Below, one piece after another: positions 1,983 through 36,038 of a stretch of 39,128 nt of DNA. Location of the stretch: the NCBI GenBank assembly GCA_902772635.1, contig CACYBK010000045.1:1-39128 (forward strand), read 5' to 3'. Positions within the stretch are counted from its first letter, which is position 1, and each line of letters opens with the position of its first letter. The DNA is from an uncultured Lachnospiraceae bacterium. GTDB taxonomy: Bacteria > Bacillota > Clostridia > Lachnospirales > Lachnospiraceae. The notes beneath the pieces were generated by a model, which was given only the letters and a program-made list of their open reading frames with translations, had not been told where the DNA came from and searched no databases. The position numbers were made by a program, and so were the translations under genes.

Positions 1983-1992
1983 GTGGACAAGT

Positions 1993-3596: not shown

Positions 3597-4081
3597 GTGA
3601 ATAATCCTCCAAAATATTCCACTGCCGCTCCAATCAGGGTGAATGGGACGAAGGGAAGCTCTTTTCCTTTGATCCCTGTTTCACTTTCACTGATATCAGG
3701 CCCATTACAAAGAGCCGTCTTCTTCCTCTTCTGCCTTATGATATAAAAAACCGAAAACACTGCGGATGAAAGTGATGCAGTAAAAAGCACTGCAAGAGAC
3801 TTTAATCCCCCAAAAAACGGTCCTGCCATACACGCATATATTACAGCGTCTCCCATGCCTATCCTGCCTTTGGTCAAAAAAGAAACTCCCATCATTATTC
3901 CCCCAATCAGAACGCCAAAAAGCATCTCCGATATTTCCAGCGTTGGGGAAAATATATGCACTGTAAAAATATAAGAGCAGAACAAAAGAGGCGGGATTAT
4001 ATTGATCTTCTTCTCCCTGATATCCTCGATTGAAAGTATAACAAGCAGGGAAAAGAAAACTGCCGCATTAATGATCTCCAT
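3593..4081 (-). CDS. A24 prepilin peptidase, second copy
   Basis: This is a 162-residue polytopic membrane protein of the TadV/CpaA type, lacking the N-terminal methylase and zinc domain of PilD. The two catalytic aspartates are Asp20 (SIEDIREKKIN) and Asp78 in the GMGD motif. The C-terminal LPFVPFTLIG block is also typical of the family. The ATG at 4081 was chosen because GGAG stands 6 bases upstream; an ATG at 4138 in the same frame would overlap tadE by 71 bp. From 4081 the overlap is 14 bp. It would cleave and possibly methylate prepilins. It sits between the two TadE-like genes, unlike the first copy at 11082, so it may be dedicated to them. Confidence 0.85.
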   Translation of the reverse strand: MEIINAAVFFSLLVILSIEDIREKKINIIPPLLFCSYIFTVHIFSPTLEISEMLFGVLIGGIMMGVSFLTKGRIGMGDAVIYACMAGPFFGGLKSLAVLFTASLSSAVFSVFYIIRQKRKKTALCNGPDISESETGIKGKELPFVPFTLIGAAVEYFGGLFT

Positions 4082-5081: not shown

Positions 5082-5157
5082 CCTTCTGCTCCCCTCCTTT
5101 CCAACAGATTCTTTAAGCCGCGTTATTGAGCAAATTCAGCCATTTTTTTACCTTCCC

Positions 5158-6693: not shown

Positions 6694-6696
6694 GTA

Positions 6697-6861
6697 TCAC
6701 ACCTGGTCGCTCTGTGTCGTGACCTTGTTGAAGATCGAACTTACAAGCGAAGTGATCTGCTTCTTGAAAATAAGCACAAGTCCTATCAGCACCACCAGGA
6801 TCAATATGACCTCAACGACCCCGATACCCTCTTCATCCTTAATAAATTCCTTAATTTTCAT
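6697..6861 (-). CDS. flp: Flp-type major pilin (Flp1 family)
   Basis: This 54-residue gene is below usual size cutoffs. The product starts MKIKEFIKDEEGIGVVEVIL, continues with a strongly hydrophobic helix (about 16-32) and ends with a short polar tail that finishes SDQV. The EEGIGVVEVIL block is the Flp1/Flp cleavage site: Gly before the mature helix and Glu near position 5 of it. It is the only small pilin-like ORF in the locus and lies after tadC, so it is the probable major subunit of the fibre. A GAGGGGG ribosome binding site stands about 7 bases upstream. The 144-bp gap before it may hold its own promoter or an RNA-processing site, which would explain high pilin dosage. Confidence 0.9.
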   Translation of the reverse strand: MKIKEFIKDEEGIGVVEVILILVVLIGLVLIFKKQITSLVSSIFNKVTTQSDQV

Positions 6862-6946
6862 ACAATACCCCCTCTCAAAAATAATGATTTACAGTTACTA
6901 TCCGGTTCTCCCGGAGTTTATACGCATTGCGTGATGACAGCCATTC

Positions 6947-6998
6947 CGGCAAAGTCCCTTCAAAGTTTCTTCAAAGCCCCTTCAAAGCCTCTTCATAC
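6947..6998. repeat. 11-bp tandem repeat, about 4.5 units
   Basis: The octamer CTTCAAAG starts at 6958, 6969 and 6980, with a variant CTTCATAC at 6991 and a partial unit before the first (GGCAAAG). The period is exactly 11 bp, about one helical turn, with variable three-base spacers. The array lies in the noncoding gap between tadC and the flp pilin. Same-face spacing suggests iterated binding sites for a regulator, or a slippage-prone tract; neither is shown. Confidence 0.6.
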
Positions 6999-7005
6999 TC
7001 CCTTT

Positions 7006-8202
7006 TCAGATCCCCGTCCCCAGAAATGCCGGGACAAGGAGCATTATCATTACTGAGCCAAGAAGCAGGATCATCGGAAAGACCAGCTTCGTGGACGCCT
7101 CCTCACCGAGCCTTATGGCGCGGTTTTTCCTCTCTTCGAATGCATCAGCCTCCTCTCTTGAAAGCTCAGCCGACAGGAAGCGGTCGCCCTTCTTCATATT
7201 CTCGGTAAGAAGAAGGGTCAGCCTCCTGTAATCCTTGTGTCCGGTCCTCTCGGCGATTGAAAAGTAAGCATCGCCCTCTCCGATGCCCTTTTCCATATCG
7301 CGGCAGGCCCTTTCTATCTCTTCAAAGCCCTCAGACCTGGGTGCTCCCCGCCGACGGTTCTCTTCATAGGAGGTTGACATCCTCTTGAACGCCTCGCGCG
7401 GTCTTATCCCTGCCCCTACAAGAAGCGAAAGCTTTGAAGCTATAGCGGGATAATCCTTTGAAAGCGCGTCATTATAAGCCTTTCTCCTCTTTTCATCCTT
7501 TTTCCTGTCAAAGAGTATGAGGACCGGAATAAGCGCGATCCCTATGAAGGCAAAGGCAATGCCCCGAAACTCCGGCTTTCTCTTAAAGCTTACAGGGCTC
7601 TCCAGAACAGAGGAAGGAAGCGTTAATGTATCCCCGCCTTCGGAATCAGCCGCTTTAAGAGCGCTCTTCAGGTTGAAGAGAAAACCGCTCTTTGTCTCAT
7701 TCCCGGGTTTCACTGCCCTGATATAGCTTATATAGCGGTCCTGTGTCTCCCCGCAGACAAGGTCAGCCCTCGCCTCTATCAAAAGCTCATTCCCTTCTTT
7801 GAAGTCTATGTTTCCCTCCGCGTCCACGACCATGGGCTCAAAGGTCCAGAAGGCCTGCACCTTTGACGACGCATAGGAGGATCTGGTGTCAAGCGGCAGA
7901 TATACTTCGTCGACGCTCTCGTTTTTACCCTTTATCGTCTCGTCGATCTCCTCCTCGGCAAGCCTGATCATCTCTTCCTCCTCTTCAGAAGAAAGCTTTC
8001 TCTCGGAGATCGGAACCTCAAGGCTTCCGCTTCTTTCCCCTCCGGAAAAATCAAGCTCTTCAACAGCCTTTCCCTCGCCCTTTTCAGGGCGCGAAAGCTC
8101 TGTCACCGCCCCGCTGTCTATTATGAAATCGTAGAGGATCATGAATAATGCAATGACCTCGATCACGATTATTATCTTTTTGTATTTCTTAAGAGTTTTC
8201 AT
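7006..8202 (-). CDS. tadC: TadC-like type II/IV secretion F-domain membrane protein
   Basis: This 398-residue inner-membrane platform protein of the Tad pilus has an unusual order: TM1 at about 9-28, then an extracytoplasmic region of about 180 residues rich in Ser/Glu, TM2 at about 214-232, a cytoplasmic GspF-like helical domain (about 235-370: KDYPAIASKLSLLVGAGI, the RPREAF turn) and a C-terminal TM segment (about 373-395). Typical TadC proteins lack the large outer insert. With TadB it should transmit TadA motion to the pilus base. The start at 8202 has AGGA seven bases upstream. Its reading frame overlaps the end of tadB by 4 bp. Confidence 0.85.
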   Translation of the reverse strand: MKTLKKYKKIIIVIEVIALFMILYDFIIDSGAVTELSRPEKGEGKAVEELDFSGGERSGSLEVPISERKLSSEEEEEMIRLAEEEIDETIKGKNESVDEVYLPLDTRSSYASSKVQAFWTFEPMVVDAEGNIDFKEGNELLIEARADLVCGETQDRYISYIRAVKPGNETKSGFLFNLKSALKAADSEGGDTLTLPSSVLESPVSFKRKPEFRGIAFAFIGIALIPVLILFDRKKDEKRRKAYNDALSKDYPAIASKLSLLVGAGIRPREAFKRMSTSYEENRRRGAPRSEGFEEIERACRDMEKGIGEGDAYFSIAERTGHKDYRRLTLLLTENMKKGDRFLSAELSREEADAFEERKNRAIRLGEEASTKLVFPMILLLGSVMIMLLVPAFLGTGI

Positions 8203-8936
8203 ACCTCAATCCTTATGATCCTGCTTCCCCACCATGCCGCGAAAAGGTAGATCGCAATGGCAGAGAGCACGGCAGCAAAGCCGATAGCTGTCTGATAAAG
8301 AGTTTCAACAAATTCGGGTGAACAGAGCCTGATATAGGTCAATATCCCCGGAGGCAGGATGAGCATCATGGTGAGTTCAAGCCGCTTTTCCGCGGACTTC
8401 GCCTTGATCTCCGACTTGAGCTGCAGGGACTGCCTGATCTTTTCCGCGGCCCTGCTGATGTTTTCCGTATAGTTCCCGCCCATGCGCTTTCCGATCGTAA
8501 GTACCTCCGCCATATCAAGAACCTCATCAAAGGGATGCCTCTTCGCAAAATCCCTGAAGGCCTCCTCCACCGGCACATTCATTGAAATCTGTCGAAGGAG
8601 CTTTGAAAGCTCGTTTACAAATCCGTCCCTTTTCCCATAGAGCATGATAAGAGCCTCTCTTGCGTCCTTCATCGAGTTTTCGAGGGAGTGGCCGGCCCGA
8701 AGTCCCGTGGAAAGCCCCGAAAGAAACTCCCGGTAGCGAAGGAAGAAGTCATCAAGCGCCTTTTCCTTTTCCCTTTTTTCGTGAAAACGCCTGTGGATCA
8801 TGTAAACCGGAATAAATGCTATGAGGCCGAAAACGGAATTAAAGACAAAATATGACATCCAAAGCGTGATCCCGCAATCTATCAGGAATACGACAGGAAT
8901 TTTTCCGTGCACCTTACCGGATTTTTCTTTTTCCAA
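8199..8936 (-). CDS. tadB: TadB-like F-domain membrane protein, TTG start
   Basis: This 245-residue Tad platform protein has two N-terminal TM helices (about 9-45), a cytoplasmic T2SSF domain (about 55-175, with LRAGHSLENSM and GKRMGGN, both family hallmarks) and two C-terminal TM helices. The longer frame opening at 9008 would overlap tadA by 127 bp. A TTG at 8936 has a near-perfect AAAGGAGG six bases upstream and gives the normal family N-terminus, so it is taken as the start; the overlap with tadA is then 55 bp. The protein works with TadC and TadA. Confidence 0.88.
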   Translation of the reverse strand: MEKEKSGKVHGKIPVVFLIDCGITLWMSYFVFNSVFGLIAFIPVYMIHRRFHEKREKEKALDDFFLRYREFLSGLSTGLRAGHSLENSMKDAREALIMLYGKRDGFVNELSKLLRQISMNVPVEEAFRDFAKRHPFDEVLDMAEVLTIGKRMGGNYTENISRAAEKIRQSLQLKSEIKAKSAEKRLELTMMLILPPGILTYIRLCSPEFVETLYQTAIGFAAVLSAIAIYLFAAWWGSRIIRIEV

Positions 8937-10072
8937 ACCACTCCTCCTTTTTCCTCTGAAAGCGACAGGACTGTGGAAAGCACTACCTCCCCTTTCTCGA
9001 TCCCGCATACCTCGTCTATCGAAAGTAATTTTCGACTCCTGTCCCGTCTGCGCCCCACATGGACGAAGAAGTCCACCCCGCCTGCGATCTGCCGTCTGAT
9101 GGCTTCAACCGGAAGGTCCATTCCCATAAGGACCATGGTCTCAAGACGTGCTATCATATCCCTTGCAGAGTTTGCATGGCCGGTCGAAAGTGAACCGTCG
9201 TGACCGGTGTTCATAGCCTGGAGGACTTCAAGAGCCTCGCCGCCCCTGCACTCTCCAACCAGGATCCGGTCCGGTCTCATCCTCAAACTCGCCTTTACAA
9301 GGTCTCTGATAGACACCGCAAGCTTTCCTTCAAGCGTCGCTGCCCTGGCCTCAAGCGTTACGAGGTTTTCTATCCCCATTACACGAAGCTCAGCCGAATC
9401 CTCTATCGTGATGACCCGCTCATCCCTGGGGATGAAGTCTGTCAAAGCATTCAGCATTGTGGTCTTGCCGCTTCCGGTCCCTCCGCTTATGAAGATATTG
9501 CATTTGGAGCGCACCATGCGCTCAAGAAAGCCTGCCGCCTCTTCGGAAAGCGAGTTGTTTTTGACAAGTCTTTCCATGGTCCATGGCTCCTTTGGAAAGC
9601 GCCTTATCGTAACTGTCGGGCGGTCTACGGAAACCGGGGGAAGGACTATTGAGACACGGGAGCCGTCGGGGAGCCTGGTATCCACTATAGGTGAGCTCTC
9701 GTTTACCATTTGATTGTTTGATGCGACTATGAACTGGATTATGTCATTAAGCTTTGACTCTGAAGAAAACTGTCTGTCAAGCCGCACGAGCCTTCCGGAG
9801 CGTTCAATGAAGATGTCCTTCGCGCCGTTTATCATGATCTCCGTGATACTGTCGTCCTCGATCAGGTCCTGAAGGATATCAAGCTTTCGGAGGGAATTGA
9901 AAACATCATGCTCGAGCGAAAGCCTGTCAGAGACGGAAAGCTTTTCTGCGGTGCTGCTCTTGAGCTCAGCCCTTATCACCTCATAGAGCTCCTCGTCCGA
10001 GATGTTTCTGTCCATGTCGATCCTTGAGAGGACACCCTGCCTCACAAGGTCGGAGATCTCAGCGTAGCTCAT
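8882..10072 (-). CDS. tadA: TadA/CpaF pilus assembly ATPase
   Basis: This 396-residue member of the VirB11-like secretion ATPases powers Flp pilus extension. Motifs present are Walker A GGTGSGKT (197-204), an Asp box around ITIEDSAELR (221-230), Walker B ILVGECRG (270-277) and a His box TGHDGSLSTGHANS (289-302). The N-terminal domain (about 50-165) with LPDGSRVSIVLPP is also typical. All catalytic residues are intact, so it should hydrolyse ATP. It overlaps tadZ by 4 bp. This gene is unrelated to the tRNA deaminase also called tadA at 18973. Confidence 0.96.
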   Translation of the reverse strand: MSYAEISDLVRQGVLSRIDMDRNISDEELYEVIRAELKSSTAEKLSVSDRLSLEHDVFNSLRKLDILQDLIEDDSITEIMINGAKDIFIERSGRLVRLDRQFSSESKLNDIIQFIVASNNQMVNESSPIVDTRLPDGSRVSIVLPPVSVDRPTVTIRRFPKEPWTMERLVKNNSLSEEAAGFLERMVRSKCNIFISGGTGSGKTTMLNALTDFIPRDERVITIEDSAELRVMGIENLVTLEARAATLEGKLAVSIRDLVKASLRMRPDRILVGECRGGEALEVLQAMNTGHDGSLSTGHANSARDMIARLETMVLMGMDLPVEAIRRQIAGGVDFFVHVGRRRDRSRKLLSIDEVCGIEKGEVVLSTVLSLSEEKGGVVWKKKNPVRCTEKFLSYS

Positions 10073-12450: not shown

Positions 12451-13941
12451 TTACTGCAGCAGCTGAAGCGCCATCTGCGGGAGCTCGTTCGCCTGGGAAA
12501 GCGCGCTGGTGCCGGCCTGGGCGAGAACATTGTCTTTTGTATATTCCGTCATTTCCTTTGCCATATCGGTGTCCTTGATCCTTGAAAGAGCACCGGTAAC
12601 ATTCTCTGCGGTTGCGTCAAGCGAAGTTCTTGCATACTCCAGACGGTTTGAATATGCGCCTATCTTTGAACGGATCTCTGAAACCCTTGCAATAGCTGAG
12701 TCAAGGCTCGTGATGGCGCGGTCAGCCCCGCCGACCTCCACGACATTGAGGTCGTCTATATAGAGGGACTTTGCGTCTGTGGGAGGTATCTTCACCGAGA
12801 GTATCTGATTCTCGTTCGCTCCGATCTGAAGATCCATGGGACCCTTGTCTGTGACATCAAGGGTGACTTTGTCACTGACCTCTCCGCCGTCCTTAAGAAG
12901 AAAGCTGATCTTGAAATCATTTGTATCGGTAATGGTCACAATGCTTCCGCTGTCATTTCCGGAATAGGTGACCGTGGCATTCGGATGATCCTTGAAAGCG
13001 GAGGGCTCTGCCGTATCGATCGTCACCTTCGGATCCCTTCCGATCCCTATACGAACATAATGCCCGTCCTCGTCCGTTCTGTGATCGTCCTCGCCTAAGC
13101 CAAGAAAATCATTATTGGCCCCTTCAAGACCCGTGGTAACGATCTCAAGTGTAGCGCCACTGCCGTACAACTGGCTGGTGATATAATAATCAGTGCTGCC
13201 TTTTTTTTCGAGACTCGCGCCCGCTATCTCCGCGGTCTTTCTGATCTCTTCATAAGCCTCGGCATTTGTCATCGCGGTAGTAAGGACGCAGGACACTCCG
13301 TTTATCTTCAGGATTCCGTTGTGGCCGTATTTGTTTACACTGTCGTTAGGATCCGGAAGGCTGCCAACCAGCATATCCGCCCTTGCTCCCGCGCCGTCGG
13401 TCACTGAAGCCGGAGTTGCCGGCTTTTCGATCTTGAAAGAATACTTCCCGACCTCCACATTGTCGGAAACCTGTATCCTTTCCACATAGTCAGCTTCCCT
13501 GTTCGGATAGACCTGCGTATTCAAGGAGCCGTTCAAAAGCGACTTTGTATTGAATTCAGTAGTTTCTGAAATACGCGTGACCTCGGACTTGATCTGATCG
13601 ATCTCTACCTGGATAGCCCTTTTGTCCTCAATAGTATTGGTGTCATTTGCAGCCTGAACCGCAAGTTCCCTCATCCTCTGGAGCATCTCGTGGACCTCGC
13701 CCAGAGCGCCGTCCGCGATCTCCATCACGGAGGTACCGTCAAGGGAGTTCTGGGATGCGCGGTCAAGCCCGTTGATCTGTGACTGCATCTTGTTTGAGAT
13801 CGCAAAACCGGAAGGATTGTCCTTTGCGTGATTGACCTTGAGGCCGCTTGAAAGCCTCTCCATAGAGGCCTTGAGATTGTCCTCGGTCCGAAGAAGGTGC
13901 TTGTTTGAAACGACTGCGGAAATATTGTGATTGATCTTCAT
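12451..13941 (-). CDS. fliC: Flagellin
   Basis: This 496-residue flagellin has conserved D0/D1 regions at both ends: MKINHNISAVVSNKHL, then RLSSGLKVNHAKDNPSG at about 32-48 and ELAVQAANDT; the C-terminus has SRIRDTDMA-type KDTDMAKEMTEY and ends in ALQLLQ. The central part (about 165-400) is a variable D2/D3 insert, so the filament outer surface is elaborate. Firmicutes often call this gene hag. The ATG at 13941 (frame opens 15 bp earlier) gives the standard N-terminus and has a GGGGGT site. A sigma-28 promoter and two CsrA-like hairpins precede it. No second flagellin is present in the window. Confidence 0.95.
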   Translation of the reverse strand: MKINHNISAVVSNKHLLRTEDNLKASMERLSSGLKVNHAKDNPSGFAISNKMQSQINGLDRASQNSLDGTSVMEIADGALGEVHEMLQRMRELAVQAANDTNTIEDKRAIQVEIDQIKSEVTRISETTEFNTKSLLNGSLNTQVYPNREADYVERIQVSDNVEVGKYSFKIEKPATPASVTDGAGARADMLVGSLPDPNDSVNKYGHNGILKINGVSCVLTTAMTNAEAYEEIRKTAEIAGASLEKKGSTDYYITSQLYGSGATLEIVTTGLEGANNDFLGLGEDDHRTDEDGHYVRIGIGRDPKVTIDTAEPSAFKDHPNATVTYSGNDSGSIVTITDTNDFKISFLLKDGGEVSDKVTLDVTDKGPMDLQIGANENQILSVKIPPTDAKSLYIDDLNVVEVGGADRAITSLDSAIARVSEIRSKIGAYSNRLEYARTSLDATAENVTGALSRIKDTDMAKEMTEYTKDNVLAQAGTSALSQANELPQMALQLLQ

Positions 13942-13994
13942 GGCGCGTACCCCCAAAGCAAACTGATATTATTTTGCCTTTTTTTAAGCCTGTT

Positions 13995-14063: not shown

Positions 14064-14091
14064 ATATCGGCCAAGTGACAGCCAAACCTTA
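14064..14091 (-). promoter_or_regulatory. Sigma-28 (SigD) promoter of flagellin
   Basis: The -10 GCCGATAT (14064-14071) is a full match to the Bacillus SigD element. A 16-bp spacer leads to TAAG (14088-14091), one base off TAAA. The -35 overlaps the stop codon of the upstream DUF6240-like gene. Transcription would start near 14056 and leave a leader of about 115 bases. Confidence 0.8.
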
Positions 14092-17000
14092 GTCCCTTGC
14101 TCTTGAAAGCACTGAGATTATCGCCCTTGCTATACCGTAAAGGCGTCGGGTGGAAATCCCCTCATCGTCAGAGAGTGATGGTGTCTGCGAAAAGCCAAAG
14201 TCCGCTTCCTCTCCCGCCGAGGGAGAGTCCGTGAATATGGCATTGGTATTGACCTTAGTCTTCAGAGAGACGGAAAGCTCGCACTCTGCACCCGACTCCC
14301 TTGCTATCGCTTCATTAAGGGCTTCCTCGGCGCTCTTAAGTATCGCGTCGGTCTTCGCTGAGTCGCTTTCAAATGCGCCCTTTATATGTCCGTCCTGATA
14401 TTTCAACGTCGCGGTGATCGAGCCCATATTGTCAAAGACCATCGAAAGGTCGACTGCACCCTTTTCCTCTTCGCCGCGCACGATCTTCAGCATCATTGTG
14501 CCGTTCTCATCCGCAACAAGGATCGGCATTTCGTAGGTCTCGCGTTTTTGTGCCATATCTGAAAGTATCTCAAGCTGCTTTGATATCTGCTTCATTCCGC
14601 GGACATCGACTGATGAAACCTCCTGCTCGATAAGCATATCGTCCATGGCATGCTCCGCCGTGTCGGCAAGCTTTCTCTGTGCCTCCGCCATCTCCTTCGG
14701 AGTCTTGACAGCCTCGCCGAAGGCCCTCATCAGGTCCTCCATCACATCGGAAAGCCCCTTATTTTCTGCCTTTTCATTCGTTTCGCTAAATACATTCCTT
14801 TCCTGCGACGGTCTCTTCCCAAAAAGAGTGCGGTACATCCGGTTCCTGTCGCTCATGAGCCCCTGCATCGCTGAAAGGAAGACCGGAGATTCCGGGATAT
14901 CAAGGCGTTCAAGGGCCTTATATACCTCTTTCTCCGAGGAAACAGCCCTCTTTATCTCTTCAAGACCTTCGTTGTCATATTCTTTTCCAAGACGCTCTTC
15001 CTCAGCAGCGTAGCTTTCTTCAGAAGACAGCCTCCCGTCCTCTCTCTGAAGCCTGTCTGCAAATTCCTCCGGTGTATATGAAAGATAATCGGTATCCGAC
15101 GCTGCCGCGTGGAAGGTCGCGGGATTTAGATAATCCGCGCTCTCAACCATCTTTCCCGCCTGGAAAGCCTTCTCTATCTGCTGTGAGATCGAAAGAGAGC
15201 CTAAGTCCTTTGCATTAACTCCGCCGAAATCATCATCCACGGTATAATCCATACCCCGGTGATGCCTTGAGCGAAGGCCTGTCAGCATATTCTTTAGATT
15301 GATATCCGCGCCCTCGAGCATGAGCTGCCCTATCACGGCACCGTCGGTCTTTTCAACAGAATAGATGAGGCGGGCTATGCCTTTGTAGGCGGAAAGCTCG
15401 TCGTCGGAAAGCTCTCCCGTCCTCTCGGCCTTGTAGAGGAATTTCCCGAAGCCTTCCTCGGGAGTGTTGTTTTCATCATTTATCCTCTTTGCAGTTTCCT
15501 TAAGCTCTGAAAGGCTCATTTCAAGAGGATTTTGACCGTTCCGTATCATCGAAGCCACGGTTCCCGGGCGAAGGAGGTTTAGGGTTTGGCGAACCTCAAG
15601 CAGGGAGGCCTTTGCAGACATTATATTGTCTTTGTTTATTTCTATCGAATTATAACCGAGCACACGCACTGCGGACTGATTGTCCTCATTATCCTCCATA
15701 TCAAGCGAAGAAAGGATGTCAGAGACATTTGAAAAAGCTTTTTTGATGCTGTCGCCAAGGTCTCGGCGAACCTGCGTCCCAATGGTCTCGTAGGTTTCCT
15801 GCGCTCTTTCATAAGAAAGCTTGAAGCTCACGGAATCGTCCCTCACCGTGGAAAGGGACTGTGACATCATCGAAAAACTCTTGTAGGTACCCAGGAACTC
15901 TATCGGAGTGCCCTTTATTTCTGAAACCGCAGCGTTTGTCTTCTCAAAGTTCTCGGAATTTACGGGGCTTTCGCTCTCTGCCTTGAGGAGCTCAAGGACG
16001 TCGGAAAGCGGGGCTGTATCTATATCAAGGCCGTGCCTCATTATCGAGCGGGCGGAAACGCTGGTCATGAGAAGGCTTGCCTCGGCAAGAGTCTTTTTCG
16101 CCGAGTCGATATCAAAGGACAAAGCAGCTTCATCAGTTAAGGAAGAGTGCTCTGACTTCAGGCTTTCAAGCGCTGCAGGATTTCCTGTCGAAAATAATGC
16201 CCTTGCCCTCATCTCCATCCTGAAGGAAAGTGACTGCGAATCGGAGTCCTCCCTGTATGAGAACTCTGCGGAAAGTGTAAGTATGGAAAGCGTTCTGCCG
16301 CGGCGCACCACGTTTTCGGCATCCTCGGGCGCCGCTTCATTTACTGCACGCGCTGCGTCGGCGGAGGCATCATTCAGAGAAAGCCCGCTTATCACATAGG
16401 CTTCTCCGGGCGCCTTTCCTTCCTCTATGGCATCTGTTACGGCAGTAAGTATCTCATCCCCGTTTTCCTTCATTATCCCTTTGTTAAGGATAGTATAGGC
16501 ATTCATATTTTCGGGCGTTACGGGAATGTCGTTTTCTATGAAGTCGGATATCACGTCTTTTCCGAAATCATCCGGCGAAAGATATGCTTTTTCAAAGACC
16601 GGGGAAAGCTGTCCTGAAGCCTCAAGGGCATCGGCCGCCTTCATGCTGTCTGATGAGGCCGCATTTTCAGCCGCTCCGAAGGAAGCGCGATAGACATTGT
16701 CTATCGTGGGCGAAAGAGAGTTCTTTACCATGAAAAGGGCGCTCTCCTTTGTGATGCCGCCCTTGTCCATTATCTCTGAATATTTTGAAAGGGCTGCCTT
16801 GACCTCGGGATGGTCCTCGATCGCCGCCTCCGAGATGTCACCCATCTTTGAAACATCGGCTCCGCCCTTTGCGAGATTGATCTTGATCTTGTCGGCAACG
16901 GTTACGAGTTCATAAGGGTCCTCTGCTGAAAGGTCAAAGCCCTCCTTCTTACCCTCGGAAAAAGCCTCCTCGTTGAGGTCCTTCGCTGCCTTTGCCATCA

Positions 17001-17268
17001 TCTGATTTTTCATCGAGATGTCACTTTCGCTCGCGACGGCAGCATTATTTGCATCATCGATCGCCTCGGAAAGAAGGTCCTTTTTCCCATAAAAAGAATC
17101 CCGCGAGGAAAGAAGTCCCTTTCCCTGCAGGGATTCGGAAAGCTGAAATGTCGCGTCATTTGATGTATCAAGCGTGATGTTTTCGCCTCTTTCAGACGCC
17201 CTTTTGAAAGCGCCTGACGCCATCGCGTCATTCTTCAGCTGCTCATAGCGGATCTCGTTAAGATGCAT
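14089..17268 (-). CDS. Large DUF6240-like flagellar protein with FliK-like C-terminus
   Basis: This 1059-residue acidic, helix-rich soluble protein has no signal peptide and no TM. It is rich in Ala, Ser, Glu and Asp and contains several long heptad-like helices. It appears to match the DUF6240 proteins of Lachnospiraceae flagellar loci. Near the C-terminus (about 915-1010) the run VDLSMVFDNMGSITATLKYQ followed by FESDSAKTDAILKSAEEAL resembles the hook-length-control (FliK) C-terminal fold. A perfect sigma-28 promoter drives it and it directly precedes flagellin, so it belongs to the late flagellar regulon. A hook ruler or an exported flagellar accessory protein are the leading ideas. It is much longer than known FliK (about 400). 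AAGGA lies nine bases before the ATG. Confidence 0.6.
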   Translation of the reverse strand: MHLNEIRYEQLKNDAMASGAFKRASERGENITLDTSNDATFQLSESLQGKGLLSSRDSFYGKKDLLSEAIDDANNAAVASESDISMKNQMMAKAAKDLNEEAFSEGKKEGFDLSAEDPYELVTVADKIKINLAKGGADVSKMGDISEAAIEDHPEVKAALSKYSEIMDKGGITKESALFMVKNSLSPTIDNVYRASFGAAENAASSDSMKAADALEASGQLSPVFEKAYLSPDDFGKDVISDFIENDIPVTPENMNAYTILNKGIMKENGDEILTAVTDAIEEGKAPGEAYVISGLSLNDASADAARAVNEAAPEDAENVVRRGRTLSILTLSAEFSYREDSDSQSLSFRMEMRARALFSTGNPAALESLKSEHSSLTDEAALSFDIDSAKKTLAEASLLMTSVSARSIMRHGLDIDTAPLSDVLELLKAESESPVNSENFEKTNAAVSEIKGTPIEFLGTYKSFSMMSQSLSTVRDDSVSFKLSYERAQETYETIGTQVRRDLGDSIKKAFSNVSDILSSLDMEDNEDNQSAVRVLGYNSIEINKDNIMSAKASLLEVRQTLNLLRPGTVASMIRNGQNPLEMSLSELKETAKRINDENNTPEEGFGKFLYKAERTGELSDDELSAYKGIARLIYSVEKTDGAVIGQLMLEGADINLKNMLTGLRSRHHRGMDYTVDDDFGGVNAKDLGSLSISQQIEKAFQAGKMVESADYLNPATFHAAASDTDYLSYTPEEFADRLQREDGRLSSEESYAAEEERLGKEYDNEGLEEIKRAVSSEKEVYKALERLDIPESPVFLSAMQGLMSDRNRMYRTLFGKRPSQERNVFSETNEKAENKGLSDVMEDLMRAFGEAVKTPKEMAEAQRKLADTAEHAMDDMLIEQEVSSVDVRGMKQISKQLEILSDMAQKRETYEMPILVADENGTMMLKIVRGEEEKGAVDLSMVFDNMGSITATLKYQDGHIKGAFESDSAKTDAILKSAEEALNEAIARESGAECELSVSLKTKVNTNAIFTDSPSAGEEADFGFSQTPSLSDDEGISTRRLYGIARAIISVLSRARD

Positions 17269-18972: not shown

Positions 18973-19512
18973 ATGACAAAAGCAGCTCTTCGCGCTGAAA
19001 AACGAAAGACTCTTCGCCTCTCCCGCGAGCAAAAAGAAATAGAAGAACAGGAAAAAACCGACCTTTTCTTCATGAAGGAAGCCATGAAACAGGCAAAAAA
19101 GGCTCTTTTGATCAGCGAGGTTCCCATAGGCTGCATTATCGTGAAAGATAATAAAATAATTGCCCGGGGCTACAACAAAAGGAACAACGATCACTCGGTA
19201 CTCTCCCATGCGGAGATCATCGCGATCAAAAAGGCGTGTAAAAATCAAAACGACTGGCGGCTTGAGGACTGCACCATGTATATTACCCTTGAGCCCTGCC
19301 CTATGTGCGCCGGAGCAATAGTTCAGGCGCGTATCCCCCGCGTTGTCATAGCCTCCAGAAACAAAAAATCCGGCTGTGCCGGATCTGTAATAAATCTTTT
19401 GAACGAAAAGGGGTTCAATCATCAGTGCTCCGTGACATATTCCGTCATGGAAGATGAGTGCAGCACCCTTCTTTCCGGTTTCTTTAAGAGCATAAGGGGA
19501 AATCAGTCTTAG
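18973..19512 (+). CDS. tadA: tRNA adenosine(34) deaminase
   Basis: This 179-residue zinc deaminase converts A34 to inosine in tRNA-Arg(ACG). HAE (about 76-78) supplies the zinc His and proton-shuttle Glu, and PCPMCAGA (about 104-111) gives the two zinc cysteines. SEVPIGCIIVKDNKIIARGYN and the ARIPRVV segment are typical of TadA. A charged N-terminal extension (1-30, rich in Arg, Lys, Glu) is longer than in Escherichia coli. AAGGA stands eight bases before the ATG. The end overlaps the convergent GGDEF gene by 4 bp. It is not related to the pilus ATPase of the same name. Confidence 0.95.
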   Translation: MTKAALRAEKRKTLRLSREQKEIEEQEKTDLFFMKEAMKQAKKALLISEVPIGCIIVKDNKIIARGYNKRNNDHSVLSHAEIIAIKKACKNQNDWRLEDCTMYITLEPCPMCAGAIVQARIPRVVIASRNKKSGCAGSVINLLNEKGFNHQCSVTYSVMEDECSTLLSGFFKSIRGNQS

Positions 19513-21263
19513 GCCCCTCTGATCTGGTTCGGATCATTCTTCTTCATCTCCGCCTTGTGGATGTACATATCATTGTCGGCATTCTTCAGCACCTCGTGGA
19601 TCGTCCCCGACTCGGTATCGGAAAGCTTTGCAGCGCCTGAAGCAATGCTCAGTGTAATATTCAGCTTCGTATCCCTGTTCCAGTCCTCTTCCTCCATACG
19701 AAGATCATGGAGTGCCTTTCCATAGCACCTGTCAAGATCGTCGCCCGTCATAGTGGCGCAGAATTCATCACCGCCGACCCTGTAAACATTTCCGTACTTG
19801 CTGAACGCCTTGTGTATGAGCGTTGCGGCAGCCTGGATGACCTTGTCGCCAACATCATGACCCAGGGTATCATTTACATGCTTGAAATTGTTGATATCAA
19901 AGTAAGCAATGAGAAGGTCGAAGTGGGAATCGAGATAAGCATTCCCGCTCAGAGTATCCTTGCTGAAATTGTCGCGAAGTATGTCAGAATCACGCTCATA
20001 TGCGGTTCTGTTCAGTATTCCGGTCAGCTGATCCGTATAGGCCTTGTCACGCTCGTTCATCAGATAACCCGTATCCGCGAGATGCTTTCTCGCCTCAAGC
20101 TCTGAATCTATGATCGAGAAGATAAGTGCTATGATCGCGCCAAAGAGCGTTGTGGGAGCGTCCTTTGTGGAGCCGTTGTCACTGATGAAGAAGAAGGCGT
20201 CAAAGACAACAGTCGCCGTAACAACCACCACACCCGCGAACATCCACCAGTCGATATCCGCCTTTACATGCTCCGTGGCTGCATCCCGCAGCGACGCTAT
20301 AAACAGTTCGATGCCGACAATGATCACATAGAGCGCCATGATATAGAAGAAGAACAGGCACTCGTTCCATTCGAGGGTTCCGCCGGTGGTAAGCGCAAGA
20401 GTTCCGACGACGCTTATGACATCCATGACGGCAAGGGTTATCGTCCAGGACTTCGTCTTGTGCGGCAGGATGGAGGCGACGAGGCAGAAGGCCGGAAGCG
20501 GGAAGATCAGCAGAGCCAGATATTTCGTCACCAGAAGAAGCTCCGTGGAATCAGGGAGCATGAGGATCGGTATATTTGATTCTATCATCAGCCAGTAGCC
20601 GCCTGCGATGCCCGAAAGAAAGAGTGAATTCCTAGAATAGCGGTATTTCAGATATTTCTGGGAAATCTCGTTGATAAGCCCTATGATCCCGACCATTATC
20701 AGGAATATGGCCAGAAGAAAAGCAACCCCGCTCTTCGTCATGATGTACTGAATATGAAGATAAGAGGGCCCGATCATAAGACCGGAAAAGTTCATGCGGC
20801 TGGTCCCGCCTGTGTTTCTGGCAAGGAGCCTTATTTCCTTTCCCGACATATCGGGGCTTAAGGGGATGTGATGATAATATGTATCAAAGACGGAACCGGA
20901 AAACCGGTTCTTTGATTCAAAGTTGTATACCTCTTTGCCGTCTATCTTCACGGAAAAATTGATAAAGCGGCCGTTCATATTGAGGCAGTCGCCGGTATTG
21001 ATCTCCGGAAGTACATTGTAAGCCACTATCGTCCCGTCAGCGCTGCTGCTCTTTATATTGTAGAACGCCGAAAGGTTCACACCCCTGCCGTTTTGATCTA
21101 TCCATCCGTCGGAGTATTCCTGGAGTCTCCCTACTGTAGTGAAGTTAAGCCCGGTCGCCGTATTCACCGCGATCAGAATAGCTAAACCAAGTACAAGGAT
21201 GATTACAATGCCGATAGCGCTCTTCAATTTTTGAGACATAAAAGACTTTATCTTGTCAGACAA
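19509..21263 (-). CDS. Seven-TM diguanylate cyclase with outer sensory domain
   Basis: This 584-residue membrane protein has TM1 (about 15-34), an extracytoplasmic beta-rich domain (about 40-185) of the jelly-roll type seen in 7TMR-DISM receptors, seven more hydrophobic helices (about 180-375) and a GGDEF domain. RVGGDEF (GGDEF at 497-501) is intact, so it should make c-di-GMP from GTP. The inhibitory RxxD site five residues before GGDEF is missing (SKYG). The frame opens with TTG at 21263, with AGGA only 3 bases before it. An ATG eight codons on (21239) is possible. It is divergent from the HD-GYP phosphodiesterase across 152 bp. Confidence 0.88.
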   Translation of the reverse strand: MSDKIKSFMSQKLKSAIGIVIILVLGLAILIAVNTATGLNFTTVGRLQEYSDGWIDQNGRGVNLSAFYNIKSSSADGTIVAYNVLPEINTGDCLNMNGRFINFSVKIDGKEVYNFESKNRFSGSVFDTYYHHIPLSPDMSGKEIRLLARNTGGTSRMNFSGLMIGPSYLHIQYIMTKSGVAFLLAIFLIMVGIIGLINEISQKYLKYRYSRNSLFLSGIAGGYWLMIESNIPILMLPDSTELLLVTKYLALLIFPLPAFCLVASILPHKTKSWTITLAVMDVISVVGTLALTTGGTLEWNECLFFFYIMALYVIIVGIELFIASLRDAATEHVKADIDWWMFAGVVVVTATVVFDAFFFISDNGSTKDAPTTLFGAIIALIFSIIDSELEARKHLADTGYLMNERDKAYTDQLTGILNRTAYERDSDILRDNFSKDTLSGNAYLDSHFDLLIAYFDINNFKHVNDTLGHDVGDKVIQAAATLIHKAFSKYGNVYRVGGDEFCATMTGDDLDRCYGKALHDLRMEEEDWNRDTKLNITLSIASGAAKLSDTESGTIHEVLKNADNDMYIHKAEMKKNDPNQIRGA

Positions 21264-21415: not shown

Positions 21416-22672
21416 TTGAAGCTCTTTAAAGGAAAAACATTTCTGGTATTCTTGCTGACGGCCATCGGCCTGATAGCAGCTTTTATCGCGCTGTTCCTTT
21501 ATGTAGCCAGCGTTTCGATGGCCGATCGGACCTTTTCATGGGACTCAAAAAAGACCGCCACTCCTCCGGGCGAGGGCTCGGGGGTTCCTTATGTTACCAT
21601 GTCCGTTCCCGAAGAAAAGCGCTGGCTTGATTTCACGAATCATACCGCTGCACCCGTCGGCGCGGAATACGATTTTACAATGATAAATGAAGGCACCGGA
21701 ATGCTTGAAGGCTGGACCCTTGATATGACCTTCAACGAGAACCTCCTGATAGACAGCTTCTGGAACGGCACCTATGAGGTCAACGGAAACACCATCCATT
21801 TCACGCCGGACAAGAATGCCGATTTCATGAAACATCTGGAGCCCGCCACCTTCGGCGCCGTGATCTATTCACAGAAGGATCTCGAGCTTGTTGGTTATAC
21901 CATCAAAGGAAGGCTCCCGATAAAGGTTCTTGATCTTCCCGTCTTCTACATCCTGATCGTCCTGGGTCTCGTCTGGATAGTCGCGTTTTTCTCTTATATC
22001 GTAAGCTTCGCCCGGGTCAGCCGGCTTCAGAAGCAGAGAGAGCGTGACCTTCTGATCATCAGCCAGTCCATCATGACCTTCACGAACTTTATAGATGCAA
22101 AAGACCCCTACACAAAGGGGCACTCAGTGCGTGTAGCTCAGTACTCAATGGAGATCGCAAAACGCATGGGCTTCTCTGAAGATAAGGTTCAGGATCTCTA
22201 TTATGAAGCGCTTCTCCATGACGCCGGAAAGATCGGTATTCCGGACGCCATACTTACAAAACCCGGAAAGCTCACAAACGAAGAGTACGCGATCATCAAG
22301 ACCCATACCACCATAGGAAGCGAGATCCTTTCGAATTTCACCACGATCCCCGATATCAAGGACGGCGCGCATTATCATCATGAAAGATATGACGGAAAGG
22401 GCTACCCTTCAGGACTCAAGGGCGAGGAGATCCCGCTGAACGCGAGGATAATATGTGTGGCGGATTCCTATGACGCCATGAGCTCCCACAGAAGCTACAG
22501 GAAGTCATATGACAATGAAAAGATATTGGAAGAGCTTCGGGACAATGCCATGACACAGTTCGACCCGGAGATCGTGCCTATAATGATCTCTATGATAGAG
22601 GACGGTTTTACGGAAAAGATCAGAGCTGAATTTGGGGCGGAGGCGGATTATTTCGGAGCGCCTGTGGTCTGA
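21416..22672 (+). CDS. HD-GYP c-di-GMP phosphodiesterase with CBM2-like outer domain
   Basis: This 418-residue protein has TM1 at about 9-33, an extracytoplasmic domain (about 60-165), TM2 at about 175-197 and a cytoplasmic HD-GYP domain (about 212-405). The catalytic HDAGK (268-272) and HHERYDGKGYP (321-331) are intact. It should degrade c-di-GMP. The outer domain reads INEGTGMLEGWTLDMTF, then FWNGTY, then FGAVI and ends in IKG, the spacing of a CBM2-like cellulose-binding module with Trp100 and Trp116. It may sense plant polysaccharide; that is inference. The TTG start at 21416 follows GGAGG by nine bases; an ATG at 21400 is out of frame. Confidence 0.88.
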   Translation: MKLFKGKTFLVFLLTAIGLIAAFIALFLYVASVSMADRTFSWDSKKTATPPGEGSGVPYVTMSVPEEKRWLDFTNHTAAPVGAEYDFTMINEGTGMLEGWTLDMTFNENLLIDSFWNGTYEVNGNTIHFTPDKNADFMKHLEPATFGAVIYSQKDLELVGYTIKGRLPIKVLDLPVFYILIVLGLVWIVAFFSYIVSFARVSRLQKQRERDLLIISQSIMTFTNFIDAKDPYTKGHSVRVAQYSMEIAKRMGFSEDKVQDLYYEALLHDAGKIGIPDAILTKPGKLTNEEYAIIKTHTTIGSEILSNFTTIPDIKDGAHYHHERYDGKGYPSGLKGEEIPLNARIICVADSYDAMSSHRSYRKSYDNEKILEELRDNAMTQFDPEIVPIMISMIEDGFTEKIRAEFGAEADYFGAPVV

Positions 22673-22682
22673 AAATCATGTT

Positions 22683-24320
22683 TCAGCCAACCCAGGCCTG
22701 CTCATCATCATCGCCGAGGACATGCCCGAGCATGATGGAGTTTCTTGACTTGTTCTTCGCCCGATAGAGAAGCGCATCCGCAGCATGAAGGAAATTCCAT
22801 GCGGTAGTGCCTTCTGTGGGCTTTCCCCAGAATATTCCCTGAGATACAGTGACTATCTTCATATAGCTCTTCGTGAACTTGTGCTCCACGGCGCGCTTCA
22901 AGATATTTTCCTTCAGGCTCTTTGCCATCTCAAAGACCTCAGTGTCTGAATATCCCTCATAGATCACAACGAATTCGTCGCCGCCGTAGCGTGCCGTAAA
23001 TACGCCGGGATTCTTTGAAAGCTCCTTGATCTGACCCGCTACAAAGGTAATGCACTCATCGCCTGCCTGATGGCCGTAATTGTCATTGTACTCCTTGAAA
23101 TAATCTATATCGAGGATCTCTATTGCCCAGCCTATATCCGCTCTGCGTGCCCTATCAAAGGAAAGCCCCGCATAGCCGTTTAATGCAGCCCTGTTCTCCA
23201 TCTGAGTCAGCGGGTCTGTCACCGACTTCTTCTGGAGCTGGCGGTTCTCCTCCTCCACCTCGCGGTTGATCCTGGCAAGGTCATTGAAGGAGCCTCTGAG
23301 ACGCAGCATATTCCTTACCATCAGGCGGTTTTCGCGCTCAGTCGTCTCATAAAGTTCAAAAAACCTTTCGGAAAGCGCTGAATACTCATCCCCCTTGCCC
23401 CTGGCTCTGGCATTCTGAAGCTGAAGCTGAACGAGCCGGCGCTCAAGATTCCTGACGTTGGTCTTTACCACCATTGTGTCCAGTTCTTTCACGATGCGAT
23501 CGAATTCGGCGTTCTGCCCCGTCTCCGAAAGCATTGAAAGATAATCATAAAGATCATCAAAAACATCCATTACCGGGAGCTCATTCATATCCGTGGCGCC
23601 CACAAGGGAGATAAATCTGTCACGCTGATCCCGATCCCCGAGGCTGTTGTAAAGTATGGCTCCGAAGCAGTTCACCGCGAGCTCGTCATGAATCTCAAGC
23701 CTCCCAGCGCACGCAGCCTCAAGCCTTTCAAACATATCCCGGGCCGCATGCATATCGCCGCGCCGCAGCAGTGCCTTTGAGAGCCCGAGCAATGCCGCCG
23801 AAAGATATGAATAATATTCATCCGGGTTGAGATTCACTTCCTCCGTCATATCATAGGAATTCTGGAAACGCCCTATCGCCTCGTCAAATTCATCCACCAG
23901 AAGAAAGAGAGAACCGATGTTGAGGTTCATCATTATCTCAAGCGACTTCAGAGCATGCTGCCTGCAGTAGGAGAGCGCCTTTGAATAATAATCCATCGCA
24001 AATGGCGCGTTACCCCGGTTCATGGAGACTATTCCAAGAAGATTGTTGGCCCTGGCGAGATATTCCCACTCTCCCGCCTTCTCAAAGGGCTCGAGACAGC
24101 CAACCATCTCGGTGTAGAAATCCACCATCTCGTTTGAAATATAATAGCGCTCTCCACGCTTGAACCTCGCGAAGCCGACCAGTGCGTCATCCTCCTGCAA
24201 AAGTCCTACGCTCTCAAGGGTATCGCACTGGGACAGGAAGGTCTTCTCGTCATTTCCAAGCCCGCCTGTGACCGCATCGATCAGGGTTGTTATATTATCG
24301 CCGTATTTTTCCAGATTCAT
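22683..24320 (-). CDS. TPR-like GGDEF diguanylate cyclase, cytoplasmic
   Basis: This 545-residue soluble protein has no TM. Residues 1 to about 345 are repeated helix pairs of the TPR type (NLLGIVSMNRGNAPFAMDYY, a typical repeat). A short coiled coil (REVEEENRQLQKK, about 357-369) links to a GGDEF domain. RYGGDEF (GGDEF at 446-450) is intact; the RxxD inhibitory site is absent (NPGV). The TPR part probably binds protein partners that set enzyme activity. It overlaps rsmA by 4 bp (ATGA) and so is produced from a housekeeping operon. It converges with the HD-GYP gene, with 10 bp between them. Confidence 0.88.
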   Translation of the reverse strand: MNLEKYGDNITTLIDAVTGGLGNDEKTFLSQCDTLESVGLLQEDDALVGFARFKRGERYYISNEMVDFYTEMVGCLEPFEKAGEWEYLARANNLLGIVSMNRGNAPFAMDYYSKALSYCRQHALKSLEIMMNLNIGSLFLLVDEFDEAIGRFQNSYDMTEEVNLNPDEYYSYLSAALLGLSKALLRRGDMHAARDMFERLEAACAGRLEIHDELAVNCFGAILYNSLGDRDQRDRFISLVGATDMNELPVMDVFDDLYDYLSMLSETGQNAEFDRIVKELDTMVVKTNVRNLERRLVQLQLQNARARGKGDEYSALSERFFELYETTERENRLMVRNMLRLRGSFNDLARINREVEEENRQLQKKSVTDPLTQMENRAALNGYAGLSFDRARRADIGWAIEILDIDYFKEYNDNYGHQAGDECITFVAGQIKELSKNPGVFTARYGGDEFVVIYEGYSDTEVFEMAKSLKENILKRAVEHKFTKSYMKIVTVSQGIFWGKPTEGTTAWNFLHAADALLYRAKNKSRNSIMLGHVLGDDDEQAWVG

Positions 24321-33588: not shown

Positions 33589-34257
33589 TTATAGAAGAGG
33601 TTTCAAAGCCTTTGGAAGGTCAGAAAGGGACGGTATCACCGCAAAAAGCCGCTCTTCAAGCTCTTTTGGAGCCGGAGTGAGATCCGGGATCATAATGGTC
33701 GAAAGCCCGGCATCAAGAGCAGATCTGGCGCCGTTAGGTGAATCTTCAACCGCAACTGCCTCAGAAGGCTTTAAAGAAATCGTCTCAAGCGCGAAAAGAT
33801 AAGGATCGGGATGCGGCTTCCCACGTGGCACCTCATGGGCTGAGATCACATTATCAAAATATTTATCAATACCGGCGCTCTCCAATATCAGGAGGGCGTC
33901 TTCTTTTCTTGTGGATGTGACTATTATTGCAGGGATATTATTTTCAGAAAGAAAAGAGGCAGCCTCGGAAATGCCGGGCTTTAAAGGGATCCCGTCCCTT
34001 GTGAGCTCATCCACAACAGCTTTTTTCATCCGCTCGTGGATGATATCATAGTCGAATTTCTCACCGAGACGCCCTTTCATAAGGACATTGCCATCTACTG
34101 AATTGATCGATCGAAGTTCGAGTGCGCCGTCGTCGGGAAAATCAGGGAAGCCGAAGTCCCTGATGGTCTTCACCCAATGCTTCTGGTATATCTTTTCGGT
34201 GTCGGTGATCGTGCCGTCAAGGTCAAAGAATACGGCTTTAAGACGCTTAAGGCTCAA
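33589..34257 (-). CDS. HAD-family phosphatase or phosphoglucomutase-like enzyme
   Basis: This 222-residue HAD enzyme has FFDLDGTITDTE (Asp12, Asp14), an alpha-helical cap (about 20-90), STR as motif II (about 114-116), KPHPDPYLFA as motif III and VEDSPNGARSA as motif IV. The cap and size match beta-phosphoglucomutases and phosphoglycolate-type phosphatases. The substrate cannot be told. The start is TTG at 34257, with GGGGAG eight bases upstream, and overlaps the GGDEF stop as TTGA, so the two proteins are co-translated. Confidence 0.88.
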   Translation of the reverse strand: MSLKRLKAVFFDLDGTITDTEKIYQKHWVKTIRDFGFPDFPDDGALELRSINSVDGNVLMKGRLGEKFDYDIIHERMKKAVVDELTRDGIPLKPGISEAASFLSENNIPAIIVTSTRKEDALLILESAGIDKYFDNVISAHEVPRGKPHPDPYLFALETISLKPSEAVAVEDSPNGARSALDAGLSTIMIPDLTPAPKELEERLFAVIPSLSDLPKALKPLL

Positions 34258-36038
34258 GATATCTTCTCCCCGAGAAGATCGTTTTTTCTCATTATCTTTG
34301 AAATGAGGCGGGAGTACATGAGGAGGAAGTTCGGGTCGGAGCTTGCCCAGCGCTTGCTGTTCTCCTTCACAAGGTATTCGTATGAGATGATAATATCGAT
34401 ATTTCCACCATCATCAACCCCCAGGTAAAAGATCGCGGAATTGTCATTCCTTTCGGTAAGCCAGTCAAAGATGACAGGATCCGTCTCCCTGATCCATGCG
34501 GCTCTGTTTATCATCAGGATGCCCTTTTGGTCATAGGAACGGGAGGAAAGGATGCATTTTGTCATCTCTTTGGTGATCTCATCAAGCCCGTCTGAAGCCG
34601 AGGAATATGCGCAGGACAGCTCTTTTCCCGCGAAAACCCTAATGGAATCAAGTCCCATCGTCTCTTTGATCTTTTCGAGGGAAGGTTTGATGGCGGCGGG
34701 ACCGTTGTCAAGGAAGGTATCGTTGATATCTGCCATAACTACAGCAAGACGGCCGGAATAGCCGGTTTCGAACTTGATCTCGGATTCACCCTTCGGAAGG
34801 ACCACATTTCCGTGCATTTCCTCGCGATAGATGATGAAGCGGTTCTTGCCCTTGCCCTTTGCGATATATAAGCCCTTGTCTGCCTTTGAAAAGAGAACGT
34901 CATAGGTCCTTCCGTTCAGGGGGGCGGTAACGGTTCCTGTGGATATCGTGACGAAGCACTTGGACTCTATCTTTCTGACTTCCCACTCTATTGTCCGCTT
35001 GATCTCCGCGAATATGCTCCTCATCTCGATCTCGCCAAGGTTTTGGGTATAGAAGAAGAATTCGTCGCCTCCGAAACGCCCGACCTTGCCGTGATCCCCT
35101 ACAGCAGCCTTTATGCAGCGGGCAACGGCCTTGATGACATCGTCTCCGAAGGCGTGGCCATAGGTGTCGTTGATATTCTTGAAATCATCGATGTCACAGA
35201 TCGTAAGCCAGACATTCTCCCCGTCCTTCATGTCCAGAAGCGCCTTCTCGGCATGGCTTCTGATCCCGTTCTTGTTCAAAAGCCCTGTCATGGCGTCCAC
35301 TTCGGGATCCCTAAGCGGGAATACTGCCGTGCGTGAGCTGTCCTTGACCTGCATCACATAGCCCGCAGTACGGGTCAGCCCGTCATTTCCGGTATGAGTA
35401 ATGCCGGAAAACTGCATGAGCTGCATCGCGTTTTCTTTTGAGAAAAATGAAGTGCGGAAAAGCGCGACGCAGTTTTCAAGCTGTCCCTCAAGAAGCTCCT
35501 GGAAGGCTCCAACCTTCGCGCGGTCCTCATCGGGCACCATGCCGTCGCAAAGCTTCTCGACAAAATCCGAAATCTCTCCCGAAAAGAGGACCACAGGCTT
35601 CAGATCCTTGTATTGATGGATAGTGAATATCCTGGTCGCTTTCGCATATTTGAACACATAATAACCCATGCCTTCAATGAGCTCGATGACCTCGCTGAAG
35701 GAATCCCGCATATGGAAGAATCTCTCCTCGGAAAGATAGATATTGCTTGCCGTAAAGAGGATTATATCCTCCTGGCCAGAGGGCAGAAACCGAAAATGAA
35801 AAGGACGAAAGACTTGATCCGTGCACTCCACATCAAGAATGGCATCTACAGACTCTTCTCCGGAATTGATCCTTTTGAAGGCATCCTTTAAAAGCTCCCC
35901 GCTCTCCTTTGTTATGAGATCACGAAGAGACCTGTGCGGCCTGTCTTTCAGAAAATCAACGCAAGCCTTGTCACAGCTCGCAATGAAATAGTCCGGCTGA
36001 ATGGCACCGGTGAAATAAGAGGGTTCGTCAAAATTCAT
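34254..36038 (-). CDS. GGDEF diguanylate cyclase with extra C-terminal domain
   Basis: This 594-residue soluble protein has a PAS-like N-terminal region (about 1-130, LPSGQEDIILFTASNIYLSE), a central helical region, a GGDEF domain with RFGGDEFFFY (GGDEF at 323-327) and about 185 further residues after GGDEF (about 410-594) that I do not recognise; the pattern is GAF-like. The inhibitory RxxD site is missing (GDHG). It should make c-di-GMP. A C-terminal domain on a GGDEF protein is uncommon. The gene is coupled to the HAD enzyme by a 4-bp overlap. A palindrome lies 70 bp upstream. Confidence 0.85.
   Translation of the reverse strand: MNFDEPSYFTGAIQPDYFIASCDKACVDFLKDRPHRSLRDLITKESGELLKDAFKRINSGEESVDAILDVECTDQVFRPFHFRFLPSGQEDIILFTASNIYLSEERFFHMRDSFSEVIELIEGMGYYVFKYAKATRIFTIHQYKDLKPVVLFSGEISDFVEKLCDGMVPDEDRAKVGAFQELLEGQLENCVALFRTSFFSKENAMQLMQFSGITHTGNDGLTRTAGYVMQVKDSSRTAVFPLRDPEVDAMTGLLNKNGIRSHAEKALLDMKDGENVWLTICDIDDFKNINDTYGHAFGDDVIKAVARCIKAAVGDHGKVGRFGGDEFFFYTQNLGEIEMRSIFAEIKRTIEWEVRKIESKCFVTISTGTVTAPLNGRTYDVLFSKADKGLYIAKGKGKNRFIIYREEMHGNVVLPKGESEIKFETGYSGRLAVVMADINDTFLDNGPAAIKPSLEKIKETMGLDSIRVFAGKELSCAYSSASDGLDEITKEMTKCILSSRSYDQKGILMINRAAWIRETDPVIFDWLTERNDNSAIFYLGVDDGGNIDIIISYEYLVKENSKRWASSDPNFLLMYSRLISKIMRKNDLLGEKIS

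Follow-up and report, generated by a model that had tools for sequence, protein, structure and literature searches.

Carbohydrate-binding modules are already known as sensors, and HD-GYP enzymes equipped with sensor domains are known as well. Among the former, the RsgI proteins, the anti-sigma-I factors of C. thermocellum, carry outer CBM3 and CBM42 modules that act as substrate sensors; they span the membrane with a single transmembrane (TM) helix and also have a region that crosses the wall and a portion inside the cell that binds sigma (PMC12203970). On the side of c-di-GMP, a review of its sensing describes predicted carbohydrate sensing by DISMED2 and effects of sugars through the PTS, and the term CBM has zero occurrences in the main text (PMC8846402). 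CBM2a modules in the glycobiome of B. proteoclasticus are assigned to enzymes and two non-catalytic proteins (PMC2914790), and the single genome of S. degradans is reported to be rich in CBM2 proteins and c-di-GMP regulators alike (PMC2386152). A search of open-licence PMC full text found no paper joining CBM2 with HD-GYP, and the pairing is undescribed in the literature found, while the supplementary domain tables of PMC8846402 may list the architecture. The preliminary description of the locus discussed here calls its arrangement the most striking new one in the window (the whole 39,128-nucleotide stretch that was analysed, from an uncultured Lachnospiraceae bacterium), which has to be qualified: the arrangement is no local oddity and recurs in at least 21 genera.

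The gene in question (21416 to 22672, the whole open reading frame) lies on the forward strand, as do all its parts given below, starts at a TTG codon with GGAGG 9 bases 5' of it, and encodes 418 residues laid out as TM helix, CBM2-like outer part, TM helix and HD-GYP domain. TM helix 1 (residues ~9-31; 21440 to 21508) and TM helix 2 (residues ~175-198; 21938 to 22009) reach Kyte-Doolittle window values of up to 2.89 and 2.71, respectively, and enclose about 143 residues (~32-174; 21509 to 21937) that this topology would place outside the cell. Within the outer part, the CBM2-like module covers residues 60-167 (21593 to 21916) and is matched at E 4.1e-39 by the profile of an alignment, A1, of the outer parts of 17 HD-GYP relatives, a set that includes the window protein itself. 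Inside the cell, the HD-GYP phosphodiesterase domain (residues 222-386; 22079 to 22573) matches PF13487 (HD_5) at E 2.7e-37 and the PDB entries 5z7c and 4mcw, with every motif in place: H236 (GHS), H268-D269 (HDAGK), H297, H321-H322 (HHERYDGKGYP), GYP at 329-331 and D350. At the level of sequence, then, the window protein is confirmed as a membrane protein with a CBM2-related outer part and an HD-GYP inner part whose motifs are intact, as had been proposed from the outer pattern, the two TM helices around it and the intact domain. A one-off or a chimeric contig was considered as an explanation and rejected, given that a protein of the same length and 91% identity is encoded, with the same neighbours, in a second genome of the genus (L009/L041), and that 28 proteins of this design were read in all. 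Rfam at gathering scores gave zero matches across the window.

That the outer part is related to CBM2 can be followed through several kinds of sequence comparison. Pfam CBM_2 (PF00553; curated cut-off 24 bits) scores the whole window protein at 24.5 bits, barely above the cut-off, and the outer part alone at 27.3-27.8 bits, with a match that spans profile positions 12-63 of 101 and leaves the last third of the profile unmatched. The same Pfam profile matches all 17 outer parts of A1 at E <= 1 (best 1.8e-11) and, on full-length proteins at E <= 0.001, 27 of the 31 from the first genus and family searches and five of six later HD-GYP relatives (the exception being L166). Turned against solved structures, the 17-row profile finds 3ndy (CBM2 of endoglucanase D) at 2.5e-9, 2cwr (a chitinase) at 4.7e-7 and 1exg (Cex) at 7.1e-6, and its scores on 14 GH5 proteins lie between 41 and 80 bits, whereas 1400 shuffled copies of these 14 reach at most 9.3 bits. 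The pattern INxG...GWTL...FWNG...FG..I, given in the preliminary description, is present beyond chance, and a chance motif was rejected on the CBM_2 score above cut-off, the CBM2 structures recovered by the profile and the ceiling of the shuffled copies. The comparison of folds that had been suggested alongside it was less informative: AlphaFold2, from two near-identical sequences, returned a low-confidence model (pLDDT 40.2, pTM 0.44), and Foldseek found zero matches at E <= 0.001, ranking type IV secretion proteins, a thioester domain and an antibody highest and a first CBM2-type entry sixth (E 0.083), a list that I give no weight as evidence of fold.

How, then, does the window protein compare with the systems named at the outset? 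With RsgI it shares the principle that an outer carbohydrate-binding module is the input of a transmembrane signalling protein, and it differs from RsgI in having two TM helices rather than one and an HD-GYP enzyme in place of the wall-crossing and sigma-binding parts; membership in the anti-sigma factors was rejected, as Pfam up to E 10 yields only HD-type families and CBM_2 on the window protein. The 7TMR-DISMED2 receptors resemble it in a predicted carbohydrate input to c-di-GMP turnover and belong to another domain family with another topology, and membership among 7TMR-DISM proteins was likewise rejected on the two TM helices and the lack of any DISM match up to E 10. GH5 cellulases from within the family and the order carry the same module, as the scores of the 14 tested attest, on a secreted or membrane-held enzyme and with no signalling domain.

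The design is widespread, and the module also sits on cellulases. The first 200 residues of the protein find matches in 48 of 299 family genomes, and the 31 proteins read from the genus and family searches divide into 17 with the TM-module-TM-HD-GYP layout and 14 GH5 cellulases (by Pfam). An order search (57 of 295 genomes) added six HD-GYP proteins from genus g207 (L050-L053, L062, L081), a class search at 1e-8 (5 of 99 genomes) added L173, which lies outside the order, and a family profile search at 1e-14 (54 of 397 genomes) gave 60 places, every one of which was read: 21 HD-GYP proteins, L161, L163, L166 and L178 being new, 35 GH5 enzymes by motif, one cut by a contig end (L204) and three, L179, L192 and L196, lacking HD-GYP, GGDEF, kinase and GH5 motifs. 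In total 28 proteins of the full layout were read, from 28 genomes and 21 genera, with HD_5 recognized by Pfam in 25 and by motif in L050, L052 and L178. No GGDEF protein with the module was seen by motif among the 60 family places, and for this check 48 order-search places (28 loci and 20 fetched stretches) were opened too. Within the window's own genus, two of six genomes have the design and two others (G002, G004) carry the module on GH5 instead (L197, L191); the window genome, 80.9% complete, shows zero further CBM_2 matches and one GH5 match at 1e-10. L179 and L196, which are small or unclassified, combine the module with a hydrophobic segment. In five GH5 enzymes (L035, L038, L048, L059, L162) a hydrophobic segment at the N terminus precedes the module, an arrangement that probably anchors them in the membrane and keeps the module closest to the cell.

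The surroundings of the window gene include GGDEF, flagellin and Tad-pilus-type genes. A divergent GGDEF gene (19509 to 21263, reverse strand; GGDEF E 1.4e-23) lies on one side and encodes an N-terminal outer part with several hydrophobic segments, its first 178 residues having zero Pfam matches, and a convergent TPR-GGDEF gene (22683 to 24320, reverse strand; GGDEF E 1.1e-32, TPR_12) lies on the other; a third GGDEF gene (34254-36038), a flagellin gene (12451 to 13956, reverse strand; Flagellin_N and Flagellin_C) and Tad-pilus-type genes (3593 to 10072, reverse strand; prepilin peptidase A24, DUF5702, two T2SSF, T2SSE, and TadE-like matches below cut-off) complete the context. An FHA/DUF6382 protein and a rhomboid protease stand beside the Tad-pilus-type genes (1161-10072, reverse strand), and a DUF6240 protein of 1059 residues (14089-17268, reverse strand) adjoins the flagellin. 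The two flanking GGDEF genes are kept around the HD-GYP gene in G005 (L041, L107), where the divergent neighbour is 99.7% identical and the HD-GYP protein 91%. A comparison with 18 other-genus stretches, some of them short, through motifs or similarity to 19 proteins of the window, did not find the window gene order, which is not kept in 16 of the 18; a GGDEF gene sits directly upstream on the same strand in L108 and L109, from two g207 genomes, and relatives of the window radical-SAM (48%) and Na/Ca-exchanger (46%) genes lie beside the design gene in L106 and L105. At the scale of genomes, the 18 with the design among the 299 (16 from the family search plus G211 and G289) have flagellin in 17 cases against 139 of 281 others (Fisher p 1e-4) and GH5 in 17 against 148 of 281 (Fisher p 2.5e-4), tests that ignore the kinship of genomes and score incomplete genomes as lacking the gene. 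The exceptions are G124, without flagellin, and G042, without GH5. An association with flagella may also hold for any protein of c-di-GMP signalling.

From these observations I propose, with a probability of roughly 0.5, that the window protein would be a CBM2-derived polysaccharide receptor that controls c-di-GMP breakdown within a single transmembrane protein. The CBM2-descended module, a beta-sandwich in CBM2, would face outward with a TM helix at each end and would contact a polysaccharide, the likeliest being a beta-glucan, for instance the cellulose of plant fibre; contact would move TM helix 2 together with the linker of residues 199-221, a short one, and the activity of the HD-GYP domain would change, a domain expected from its family to degrade c-di-GMP supplied by GGDEF enzymes, among them the products of the two flanking genes. 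As to direction, one can only guess that the free receptor would be an active enzyme, keeping c-di-GMP low and the cell swimming, and that contact with fibre would damp the enzyme, raise c-di-GMP and lead the cell to stop and adhere by its Tad pilus. In favor of the proposal stand the CBM2 kinship, the module common to HD-GYP proteins and GH5 cellulases, the well-kept Trp116, the complete HD-GYP motifs, the associations with flagellin and GH5, the GGDEF neighbors and a PilZ match in the genome; against it stand the low-confidence fold model, the relaxed Trp72 place and the non-aromatic Trp17 place taken up below, the zero further CBM_2 and single GH5 matches in the window genome, a gene order that is rarely kept, and a PDB match to a cGAMP enzyme. 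The decision of fibre-living Firmicutes to stop on fibre, like the inputs of most HD-GYP enzymes, is largely open. If the module does bind polysaccharide, a small soluble domain and an assayable enzyme would allow the idea that c-di-GMP is set by contact with fibre to be put to a direct test in many species, and c-di-GMP would join sigma-I/RsgI as a polysaccharide-sensing route of cellulolytic clostridia.

Much of the case turns on the putative binding face, for which Cex is the guide, its Trp17, Trp54 and Trp72 being what I take to be the residues of the cellulose-binding face. The window module has W70, Y85, W100, W116 and G147 conserved and, beyond the profile match, shares with the CBM2 of 3ndy, 1exg and 2cwr the core tryptophan (W100), a Trp54-like residue (W116, aligned with Cex Trp54) and the FG turn; unlike them it is held between two TM helices, has Asn134 at the place of Trp72 and a non-aromatic residue at the place of Trp17, with W70 sitting 12 residues before G82. 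The full CBM2a aromatic triad was looked for in the window protein, and one canonical place, that of W116, is filled. Across 23 modules of HD-GYP sensors and 30 further ones, of which 28 belong to proteins read as GH5 and the remaining two, L049 and L054, to short frames, the W116 place is Trp in 22/23 and 30/30 and the W70 place in 21/23 and 26/30, the remainder being gaps, whereas the Trp72 place is aromatic in 11/23 sensors against 29/30 others (Fisher p 5e-5, a rough figure as the sequences are related). The sensors keep one canonical aromatic and keep the extra tryptophan, W70, well, and the third place, with just these counts and an Asn in the window, is therefore relaxed. The aromatic counts weaken the case for a flat platform on crystalline cellulose, and the module may instead recognize single chains or another ligand, or may have lost its function. 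The place that decides between 2a and 2b specificity is presumably Cex Gly20, with which G82 of the window protein aligns. Gly occupies it in 17/23 sensors and in 1/30 other modules, and because of the latter count G82 is a poor marker of cellulose versus xylan binding here. In the B. proteoclasticus paper, Gly rather than Arg at the specificity place distinguishes CBM2a from 2b (PMC2914790).

Here the main rival enters, namely that the module descends from CBM2 and no longer binds plant polysaccharide, sensing instead the cell's own wall, its exopolysaccharide or a partner protein and so reporting the state of envelope or biofilm to the HD-GYP domain, a reading I consider a serious contender and somewhat less probable than the plant-polysaccharide receptor. 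The relaxed third aromatic place fits it, and so does descent: in a tree that takes in 52 modules, 22 from HD-GYP proteins and 30 others (the set of the site counts with L009, L051, L053, L054 and L081 dropped and L161, L162, L163 and L166 added), the labels change 4 times, where shuffled labels change 17 times, and good support is confined to 8 of 49 inner branches. The sensors thus look mostly like a lineage apart, not like recent duplicates of the modules on local enzymes, and may have a single origin. That a sister version, lengthened by an inserted loop, serves on kinase-type proteins as well also agrees with an envelope ligand, as would the geometry, a module anchored at both ends near the membrane and reachable by fibre only through a Gram-positive wall. 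What speaks for plant polysaccharide instead is that Trp116 and W70 are conserved in the sensors about as in the enzymes, that the modules of the two are close kin, and that GH5 enzymes accompany the design in all but one of its 18 genomes. Three GH5 modules (L038, L162, L060) are placed among the sensors on the tree with weak support.

The sister version just mentioned widens the picture. It is longer, with WNGxxEIHQ and an inserted loop, and occurs on ten more HD-GYP proteins (L070, L072-L080) and, in the order search, on two kinase-type proteins (L089, L090); a comparison of the short and long-loop profiles gives a probability of 98.3 and E 1.7e-14. Searched in the 299 family genomes at E <= 1e-6, it gave 27 matches, six of them the short version or GH5 and 21 strong, of which 17 have HD_5 and four HATPase_c (one of the 21, L119, being the same gene as L076). 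CBM_2 matches it weakly, at best at E 0.0055 and with no member at 0.001, and because of that its derivation from CBM2 is traced through the short version alone; against CBM2 structures it reaches E 0.2. In all, six kinase-type proteins have a long-loop outer part (L089, L090, L129, L130, L131, L134), response-regulator domains occur in two of the kinase-type set from the family search, and L090 matches kinase families below cut-off only.

Could the outer part be nothing more than a cap that supports dimerisation or stability, with the enzyme run by its expression or by cytoplasmic signals? I think this improbable, even granting that the ligand role of the outer part is itself deduced and that HD-GYP domains in general can function with no outer sensor, since the CBM2 pattern is conserved over 21 genera and the sister module recurs on kinases, proteins in which the outer part typically serves as the input. 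Returning to the receptor reading, the broadest form in which I would put it, and more tentatively than for the window protein itself, is that Lachnospiraceae and their neighbors might use one cellulose-holding module both on secreted cellulases and on a family of short- and long-loop receptors, mostly HD-GYP proteins and sometimes histidine kinases, such that contact with plant polysaccharide would directly reset c-di-GMP and the choice between swimming and attachment to fibre. Four long-loop HD-GYP proteins (L070, L072, L073, L074) have LHNIGNY in place of the LHDxGK of active ones, a replacement that probably breaks the HD motif in proteins that still have the sensor; they are possibly non-catalytic receptors.

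The enzyme at the other end deserves the same scrutiny. The two nearest structures, 5z7c, which I take to be the V. cholerae enzyme, and 4mcw, presumably PmGH, share with the window protein the HD and the HHExxDGxGYP pattern, and neither carries a CBM2-like outer part. The best PDB match of the HD-GYP part is 5z7c, 3'3'-cGAMP-specific phosphodiesterase 3 (4.5e-52 over several stretches), its best single stretch (129 bits) about tying with that of 4mcw (134 bits). On this match the same receptor might work through another messenger, its HD-GYP domain cleaving 3'3'-cGAMP or another dinucleotide in place of c-di-GMP; that I would regard as unlikely, as two GGDEF genes flank the gene, GGDEF making c-di-GMP in most known cases. 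Breakdown of c-di-GMP by the window protein accordingly remains the expectation from its family. Tyr232 aligns with a Glu of 4mcw that I assume to be a ligand of the third metal, and because Tyr stands where 4mcw has this Glu a two-metal site is the likelier one in the window protein. The window genome (2.06 Mb) has 18 places that match the HD-GYP part, the window gene included, a large HD-GYP network that stands beside one PilZ match, a possible c-di-GMP receptor.
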